From NCBI RefSeq assembly GCF_014672715.2, contig NZ_CP058566.2, positions 1,674,001-1,738,000 on the forward strand: DNA of 64,000 nt, written 5' to 3'. The DNA is from Dehalogenimonas etheniformans. GTDB taxonomy: Bacteria; Chloroflexota; Dehalococcoidia; Dehalococcoidales; Dehalococcoidaceae. The notes below the pieces were generated by a model that saw only the letters and a list, made by a program, of their open reading frames with translations, ran no database searches and had not been told where the DNA came from. This document shows, piece after piece, positions 10,267-46,264 of the stretch. How positions within the stretch are numbered: the first letter of the stretch is position 1; each line of letters starts with the position of its first letter. The position numbers and the translations under genes were made by a program.

Positions 10267-10309
10267 AAAGTCAGAGGGGGGAGCCATTATACTCCCCCCT
10301 CTGACTTTT
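10267..10309. terminator. Bidirectional terminator between the orphan regulator and rdhBA
   Basis: A 17-bp perfect stem (AAAGTCAGAGGGGGGAG paired with its complement at 10292-10308) with an 8-base loop. It has A/T tails on both sides, so it can stop transcription from both the rightward regulator and the leftward rdhB. Confidence 0.9.
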
Positions 10310-44537: not shown

Positions 44538-44564
44538 TTAGCACTCTCTCAATGAGAGTGCTAA
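44538..44564. promoter_or_regulatory. CIRCE operator (HrcA site)
   Basis: Perfect TTAGCACTC-N9-GAGTGCTAA, the consensus CIRCE element. Its place just after the -10 box means HrcA would block transcription of hsp20 until heat shock. Confidence 0.97.
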
Positions 44565-44599: not shown

Positions 44600-45073
44600 A
44601 TGGTGCTGCAAAGATGGGACCCCTACCAGGAACTGAGGCAGATGGACAAGACGTTCGACAGGTTATGGCGCGGTCTCGGACGGTTCCCGACAACGGTAGA
44701 GAAGTGGGATATCCCGATCGACGTCAAAAAGGAAGGCGACGAGATTATCGTCAAGGCTTCCTTGCCGGGAGTCAAGCCGGAAGAGATCCAGGTCACGGTT
44801 GAAGACAATGTATTGGAGCTCAAAGCTGAAAGCTCGACCGAAACCGAATCGGAACAGTCAGGATACCTTGTCCGAGAGCGGGCTTATGGTTCGTTCTTCC
44901 GAGCGTTGAGACTGCCGGAGAATGTCGACACGGAACACATCCAATCGTCGTATGAACATGGCGTCCTCACCGTCACGTTACCAAAAGCCGAGGAAAAAAA
45001 GCGCAAGCAGATCAAGGTGGCCGTTCAAAGCGGCAATAAGGTGATCGAAGCTCCCGGGAAAAAGGAAAAATAG
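44600..45073 (+). CDS. Hsp20/alpha-crystallin small heat-shock protein
   Basis: An ATP-independent chaperone of 157 residues. The alpha-crystallin domain spans about 38-140: DIPIDVKKEGDEIIVKASLPG, ESSTE, YGSFFRALRLPENVD and the VLTVTLPKAE strand. A C-terminal IxI-type tail is not obvious. The ATG follows GGAAGGAG. It is controlled by the CIRCE element and promoter upstream and ends at a terminator. Confidence 0.96.
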   Translation: MVLQRWDPYQELRQMDKTFDRLWRGLGRFPTTVEKWDIPIDVKKEGDEIIVKASLPGVKPEEIQVTVEDNVLELKAESSTETESEQSGYLVRERAYGSFFRALRLPENVDTEHIQSSYEHGVLTVTLPKAEEKKRKQIKVAVQSGNKVIEAPGKKEK

Positions 45074-45093
45074 TAGCTGCTTCGGTTAGCTAC

Positions 45094-45123
45094 AAAAAGG
45101 CCGGCGAACATGCCGGCCTTTTT
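45094..45123 (+). terminator. Terminator after hsp20
   Basis: AAAAAGGCCGGC/GCCGGCCTTTTT with a 6-base loop, 20 bp after the stop. Confidence 0.95.
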
Positions 45124-45152
45124 GTTATCTTAAACACAATCCAAAATGGCTT

Positions 45153-45181
45153 TTGAATTTCGGCATCGGGGCTCTTATAAT
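45153..45181 (+). promoter_or_regulatory. Promoter of the leader peptide / EamA transcript
   Basis: TTGAAT (45153) and TATAAT (45176) with a 17-bp spacer. The start of transcription would be at about 45188, only some 9 bases before the leader ATG. Confidence 0.75.
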
Positions 45182-45196
45182 ACCGGAATCGTTCAG

Positions 45197-45307
45197 ATGA
45201 AAAACTCAATTTTACCCCCGGCAAACCTAGGATCCTTACATCCGGCCTTAACGGCCGGCGGTGTTGTCATCGCCGTGGTGAGCATCCCCGTCTGCGTTTT
45301 CGACTAG
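45197..45307 (+). CDS. Val/Ile-rich leader peptide upstream of the EamA gene, 36 aa
   Basis: A short frame starting almost at the predicted transcript start. It encodes MKNSILPPANLGSLHPALTA followed by GGVVIAVVSIPVCVFD. The last 16 residues have six Val and two Ile, as in branched-chain amino-acid attenuator peptides. It contains a CCGGCC/GGCCGG hairpin (45242-45258). Its stop lies 3 bases before the hairpin that covers the next ribosome site. No clear ribosome site of its own. The regulatory role is inferred. Confidence 0.45.
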   Translation: MKNSILPPANLGSLHPALTAGGVVIAVVSIPVCVFD

Positions 45308-45310
45308 CGG

Positions 45311-45346
45311 CCTTTCTAACGGTTCGTCCACCACAAGTTAGAAAGG
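45311..45346 (+). promoter_or_regulatory. SD-sequestering hairpin before the EamA gene
   Basis: CCTTTCTAAC (45311-45320) pairs perfectly with GTTAGAAAGG (45337-45346). The right arm contains the ribosome site AAAGG, 9 bases before the ATG at 45356. ATTTTT follows, so it could act as either a translational switch or a weak terminator. Confidence 0.65.
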
Positions 45347-45355
45347 AATTTTTCA

Positions 45356-46264
45356 ATGTCACCGATCTGGTTTATTCTTGCCTTCTCAACAACAATAATC
45401 TCCGCCCTGGTCAGCCTGCTGGACAGTCATTTCATGTCCCGGCGCATGCCCGGAATGAGAGCGTACATCCTGGTGTGCAGTATTTTCACGCTACCAGCGA
45501 GCATTGTTATGCTCATATTCTTTCCGTTGCCTGCCGGAATCGGCTTGGCACCGATCTGGGCGATTGTCGCCTCCGCTATCCTGACCTCGTTCGCCTCGGT
45601 GCTTATCCTTCAGGCGATGAAAAGCCAGGACGTCGCCCGGGTCGCACCTATGACCAGCACGGCACCGGTTTTTGTCGCTATCCTGGCGACGATATTTCTG
45701 GGAGAGAGCCTGGGGCTGCGCCAGTGGTTTGGCATCGCGGCGGTTATCGGTGGGGCGATCATCATTTCATTCAATTGGGACGCCGCCGGCGAAGGGCATT
45801 TCCACAAAAAACCATTCCTCATGCTGCTGAGCGTCGCAGTTATAGCCGCCGTGAGCAGTGTCATAAATAAGTATGCCCTTGACTACATGTCGTTCTGGAC
45901 GGCGGCCGGGCTCGATTTCCTCATCGCCTCGATACTCATCCTGGCTTTCTGCCTGCGGAGGGATGTGCTGGCCAGCCTGCGTTCGATGGTAAATTCCAGA
46001 CAGGCGATCAATCTGACGGTGTTCAACCAGGGCATCGCCACCGTGGCCACGGTGATGGCGTTCTGGACTATCCAGCTGGGACCGGTGGCGCTGGCTTCAA
46101 CGGTATTCAATGCCAAGCCGCTGCTAATTTTTATTTCTTCGGCGGTTATCGGCAAGCTGGCTCCAGGATTCATGGTCAGTGAAAAATTGAGCCCGAAAGG
46201 GTGGGCCATGAAAGGCATCGGCACCGCGGCGGTGGTGGGAGGACTGGCGGCTGTGTTCATCTAG
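45356..46264 (+). CDS. EamA/DMT-family transporter
   Basis: A 302-residue inner-membrane protein with ten hydrophobic helices in two EamA repeats (about 1-140 and 152-300). The first ends with AIAAVIGGAIIISFNWD-like sequence (FGIAAVIGGAIIISF), the second with GIGTAAVVGGLAAVFI. Family members export amino acids or other metabolites. The leader peptide with a Val/Ile cluster suggests an amino-acid-related substrate, but this is inference. Confidence 0.88.
   Translation: MSPIWFILAFSTTIISALVSLLDSHFMSRRMPGMRAYILVCSIFTLPASIVMLIFFPLPAGIGLAPIWAIVASAILTSFASVLILQAMKSQDVARVAPMTSTAPVFVAILATIFLGESLGLRQWFGIAAVIGGAIIISFNWDAAGEGHFHKKPFLMLLSVAVIAAVSSVINKYALDYMSFWTAAGLDFLIASILILAFCLRRDVLASLRSMVNSRQAINLTVFNQGIATVATVMAFWTIQLGPVALASTVFNAKPLLIFISSAVIGKLAPGFMVSEKLSPKGWAMKGIGTAAVVGGLAAVFI

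Follow-up and report, generated by a model that had tools for sequence, protein, structure and literature searches.

The window (the whole 64,000-nt stretch that we analysed, from the 2.07-Mb genome of Dehalogenimonas etheniformans) carries on its + strand a gene for an EamA-family transporter, which is preceded by a predicted promoter, a 36-codon open reading frame and a stem that overlaps the ribosome-binding site of the transporter gene. The features are given below, together with their state upstream of the ortholog in a second genome of the genus, G004.

45153..45181, + strand: sigma-70-like promoter, −35 TTGAAT, 17-nt spacer, −10 TATAAT; 10/12 in a consensus scan
45197..45307, + strand: leader ORF of 36 codons, MKNSILPPANLGSLHPALTAGGVVIAVVSIPVCVFD-stop, defined by its reading frame; counterpart of equal length in G004
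45284..45307, + strand: C-terminal block of the leader, ATC CCC GTC TGC GTT TTC GAC TAG (IPVCVFD-stop); two differences in G004, both third-position and synonymous
45311..45320, + strand: left arm of the stem, CCTTTCTAAC; identical in G004
45337..45346, + strand: right arm of the stem, GTTAGAAAGG, overlapping the exporter SD and assigned by folding; identical in G004
45342-45347, + strand: exporter SD AAAGGA, 8 nt 5' of the ATG at 45356
45356..46264, + strand: EamA-family (DMT) transporter of 302 aa, the gene proposed to be controlled; Pfam EamA 4.2e-21

Promoter, leader and stem at the exporter locus

Transcription is expected to begin near 45188, which leaves a 5' UTR of about 9 nt before the leader ATG at 45197; no obvious SD for the leader is found within this short UTR. 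The leader TAG (45305-45307) ends 48 nt 5' of the exporter ATG and is separated by three bases, CGG, from the stem, which is perfect over 10 bp and closes a 16-nt loop in the window. The earlier note on this DNA had described this very arrangement (a 36-codon leader, three bases, and a 10-bp perfect stem over the exporter ribosome site), and each of its elements is present.

The same note had called the promoter a good one. Its score of 10/12 alone does not bear this out, as the consensus scan performs at chance level (2 promoter-like sites found vs. 1.5 expected); what stands is the site itself, which lies just 3' of the terminator of the hsp20 gene and is kept in 4 of the 4 orthologs read, with a −10 TATAAT and a −35-like TTG at 17 nt (spacing counted by eye). 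TATAAT lies 15 nt from the leader ATG in both the window and G004. Two other genomes with a close ortholog (G003 and G007) have a matching promoter (TATAAT, with a TTG at 17 nt), and there the ATG of the exporter itself comes 13 nt after TATAAT; as the exporter ATG there occupies the place of the leader ATG, these orthologs support both the promoter and the start codon of the leader.

The exporter matches PF00892 in two stretches with 76.1 bits against a cut-off of 28.2, which places it in the EamA/DMT family, and its NCBIfam matches all fall far below their cut-offs and yield no specific name. Some EamA homolog occurs in 11 of the 11 family genomes, its own included, whereas close exporter orthologs are confined to four: the window, G004 (75% identity), G003 (74%) and G007 (74%), the others reaching at most 34%. 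A search of genome contigs with the exporter alignment returned two loci, one in an order-level relative and one a partial match of 32%. Two order-level relatives (G011 and G049) each carry two EamA paralogs, 44-53% identical to the exporter of the window; in G011 the two are neighbours.

Perfect stems are common across the window: with loops of 3-40 nt allowed, the 64 kb contain 14 stems of at least 10 bp, whereas 30 first-order Markov sequences average 2.5 and have no more than 5. Several of the stems counted in the window resemble terminators or the CIRCE operator. A 10-bp stem is therefore no evidence by itself; the leader stem rises above chance because both of its arms are conserved in G004. 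The arms are identical in the two genomes, so they offer no covariation. The 213-nt leader region folds moderately better than its shuffles (z −2.21; 7 of 200 equally good). Elsewhere in the window, at 10267-10308, lies a 17-bp perfect inverted repeat (AAAGTCAGAGGGGGGAG...CTCCCCCCTCTGACTTT), possibly a bidirectional terminator.

Conservation and distribution of the leader

Upstream of its exporter ortholog, G004 shares the promoter, the CGG and the stem arms with the window, the arms enclosing a different loop, of 19 nt; its leader (MNNVLAPRETEDLHRPAAADAGTLAAVPRIPVCVFD) also has 36 codons, and the two leaders align without a gap from the ATG through the left arm (MAFFT). Four-fold sites of the exporter are identical at 66 of 131 positions between the two genomes, which sets the neutral level at about half. 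Against this level, codons 1-29 of the leader (47 of 87 bases identical; pS 0.36, pN 0.50), including most of the Val/Ile run, drift like neutral sequence, and it is the last seven residues, the stop codon and the stem that are kept: 22 of 24 bases are identical from codon 30 through the stop, with pS 0.43 and pN 0.00 for codons 30-36, and 37 of 39 bases from the C-terminal block through the left arm. The earlier note had proposed the conservation of peptide and stem as a check on its reading, and that equal rates of synonymous and non-synonymous change would count against it. The peptide as a whole shows just such rates (pS 0.37, pN 0.40), and the last seven codons do not; the prediction of conservation thus held for those codons, the stop and both arms, and not for codons 1-29.

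The conservation of the element is that of two genomes, and two of the four close orthologs, those of G003 and G007, have neither leader nor stem upstream of the exporter, which suggests that leader and stem came or went together. In the exporter tree G004 falls outside the group of the window, G003 and G007, a position that would imply loss of the leader in G003 and G007, with a support (0.706) too weak for such use. In both leaderless genomes, the distance of 13 nt from TATAAT to the exporter ATG implies almost no 5' UTR and no SD, and the intergenic region before the promoter is densely filled with hairpin-like repeats (TTCCCGC..GCGGGAATGACA).

In wider searches, leader DNA gave long matches among 393 genomes of the class only in its own genome and G004; matches of 19-44 bases (E 0.002-0.01) in 15 other genomes and at a second place in G004 were taken as chance. 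The PVCVFD-stop pattern occurs in 2 of the 393 class genomes, at one site each, and the stem pattern in 2 of the 11 family genomes. No leader was found in viral contigs or in plasmids. When 30 regions upstream of exporter homologs (L001 and L003-L031) were read by eye, a leader was seen in two, the window and G004; the upstream regions in G011 and G049 (53%) show none, and homologs of at most 38% identity, read by eye only, make up 24 of the 30.

Ribosome position and opening of the exporter SD

For each position of a ribosome on the leader, we folded the RNA 3' of the ribosome in both the window and G004, leaving aside the RNA behind it, and we refolded codons 23-36 with 3' reaches of the ribosome of 13-18 nt. 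Opening of the exporter SD costs 8.1 kcal/mol (window) and 5.9 kcal/mol (G004) without a ribosome, and 2.9 kcal/mol in both sequences when the left arm is masked. The cost is about 7.5-9.6 kcal/mol in the two sequences when any of codons 23-33 occupies the P site; at codons 23-28, which hold the Val/Ile run, the stem stays shut in both (8-9.6 kcal/mol). Opening begins at codon 34 only at reaches of at least 16 nt; at codon 35 the cost is 1.5-3.9 kcal/mol at reaches of at least 14 nt (6.2-6.3 at 13 nt); and at codon 36 it is about 1.5-3.6 kcal/mol at all reaches of 13-18 nt in both sequences. In G004 only, early positions (codons 15-20) lower the cost to 4.4-6.2 kcal/mol, never to the level of the last codons. 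As the opening cost is lowest there in the energy model, the conserved C-terminus and stop mark the predicted pause position that best frees the exporter SD.

A candidate attenuator, its rivals and its relatives

We lean, by a little, towards a translational attenuator like those of cat and cmlA, where the ribosome site of the exporter would become accessible once a ribosome arrests, or terminates slowly, at IPVCVFD-stop. The locus has what such a device calls for: a short leader ORF upstream in its own predicted transcript, kept in G004; a stem that sequesters the downstream SD AAAGGA in both genomes; and a conserved site, codons 34-36, at which a ribosome is predicted to disrupt the stem in both sequences. 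From this anatomy, the conservation pattern and the position-dependent opening in silico we infer leader translation, arrest, a stimulus and induction of the exporter, as follows. The transcript would begin about 9 nt 5' of the leader ORF, and in the default state the 10-bp stem would mask the exporter SD; a ribosome would arrest or terminate slowly with ...IPVCVFD in its tunnel, codons 34-36 in the P site and the stop in or near the A site; and the paused ribosome would cover the left arm, leaving the SD free and the exporter translated. The stimulus would probably be a small molecule that the ribosome and its nascent chain detect together, and plausibly a substrate of the exporter; that it is the exporter's own substrate or an exported ribosome-targeting drug is our guess.

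The proposed site of arrest or slow termination, the IPVCVFD-stop block, resembles no arrest motif known to us. We put forward, tentatively and with more doubt, that it may be a new arrest sequence, by which ribosomes of Dehalococcoidia, when they terminate, detect a small molecule and induce a DMT-family exporter of that molecule, and that leader and stem may form a cassette that can be acquired or lost whole between promoter and exporter ATG.

The same anatomy would serve a passive translational coupling, in which any ribosome that finishes the leader briefly melts the stem and allows low, leader-dependent translation of the exporter with neither arrest nor ligand: the TAG and the next ATG are 48 nt apart, and the model predicts an open SD with a ribosome at codons 35-36, arrested or not. 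We nevertheless consider coupling unlikely, as it does not account for a pN of 0 in the seven C-terminal codons next to the free drift of codons 1-29; selection that acts on the amino acids of the C-terminus and nowhere else in the peptide favours arrest by the nascent chain, or slow termination, over simple coupling. The block might instead work as RNA, through binding of a protein or ligand or through alternative pairing, with the ORF incidental. The identity of 37 of the 39 bases of block and left arm would fit such an element, as would the nature of the two changes, both C/U transitions that would also keep pairs with G; however, the frame, the start and the 36-codon length are kept in G004, the folds of the window and G004 differ upstream of the stem and share no structure of the block beyond the SD stem, and the leader matches no Rfam family at gathering score. 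In the whole window, Rfam 15 at gathering score finds two tRNAs and no riboswitch or leader family, and the 26 sub-threshold matches at 45070-45420 are all well below gathering scores. Under constraint at the RNA level, the chance that both changes in the block would fall at third positions is, by a rough estimate, about 1 in 10. We judge an RNA-level element to be quite improbable; two synonymous changes, at the same time, are thin evidence for arrest over either coupling or such an element.

The two modes of control that the earlier note had suggested, stalling at the Val/Ile run and termination at the hairpin, find no support here. Codons 23-34 are rich in Val and Ile in the window, as in an attenuator that responds to branched-chain starvation; however, a run of regulatory codons is not conserved, as VVIAVVSIPVCV aligns with TLAAVPRIPVCV in G004 (VVIAVV vs. 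TLAAVP), a stall at codons 23-28 leaves the stem closed and the SD hidden, and induction by starvation would fit an exporter poorly, so that we give this reading hardly any credence. An intrinsic transcription terminator at the stem is scarcely more probable: AATTTTTC follows the stem in the window and is replaced by AAATCTCAC in G004, where the U-run is gone although the stem is identical, which makes a terminator unlikely and led us to reject transcription attenuation. A terminator scan did not list the stem either, a weak argument given its loop limit of 8 nt.

The translational attenuator that we favour has relatives among known systems. According to excerpts of two papers, the cat and cmlA chloramphenicol-resistance attenuators keep an SD hidden until a ribosome stalls in the leader ORF and releases it (PMC8876359; PMC5418344); the locus would share with these, as they are described there, the short leader ORF, the stem over the SD of the next gene and the proposed release by a stalled ribosome, and with cmlA also the control of an exporter (PMC8876359; PMC5418344). 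The excerpt on cmlA gives a leader of 9 aa that has a strong SD, along with two alternative stem-loops (PMC8876359), whereas here we find 36 aa, no clear leader SD, a single stem adjoining the stop, another C-terminus and an EamA/DMT target. ErmC-type macrolide attenuators likewise combine a leader peptide with SD sequestration; their release, in the excerpted account, proceeds via an alternative RNA structure (PMC5418344), whereas here the ribosome would cover a single stem directly. For TnaC, an excerpt reports stop-codon pausing controlled by a short peptide and arrest by free L-tryptophan (PMC8429421); TnaC acts through Rho and transcription, in contrast to the SD stem here, and we claim no sequence resemblance. 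RAPP-type arrest peptides, as far as excerpts describe them, also have a short arrest motif at the C-terminus, ahead of a gene under control; they differ in that IPVCVFD contains no R-A/G-P-P and in that their targets are protein-localisation machinery rather than an exporter. Among open-licence papers, we found none that joins a leader peptide to an EamA or DMT exporter, and open-licence titles and the starts of abstracts yielded no such system for leader peptides of Dehalogenimonas.

If the proposed mechanism is true, the arrest sequence would come from a phylum for which the literature search found none described, and the substrate of an exporter of a kind that is hard to assign could be screened for directly with a leader peptide responsive to it. 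With the leaderless orthologs of G003 and G007, controlled and uncontrolled genes under the same kind of promoter could be compared as they occur in nature.

Weak Thr_leader and Leu_leader matches lie within the terminator region of hsp20 (45070-45162) or else have minus-strand orientation; they score far below gathering and were rejected. A perfect CIRCE operator (TTAGCACTC-N9-GAGTGCTAA), an HrcA site, lies at 44538-44564, 5' of the hsp20 gene at 44600. CIRCE is absent from the examined G004 stretch that carries an hsp20 homolog, and the copy in the window is the only one genome-wide at up to one mismatch; the heat-shock regulon may be unusually wired.
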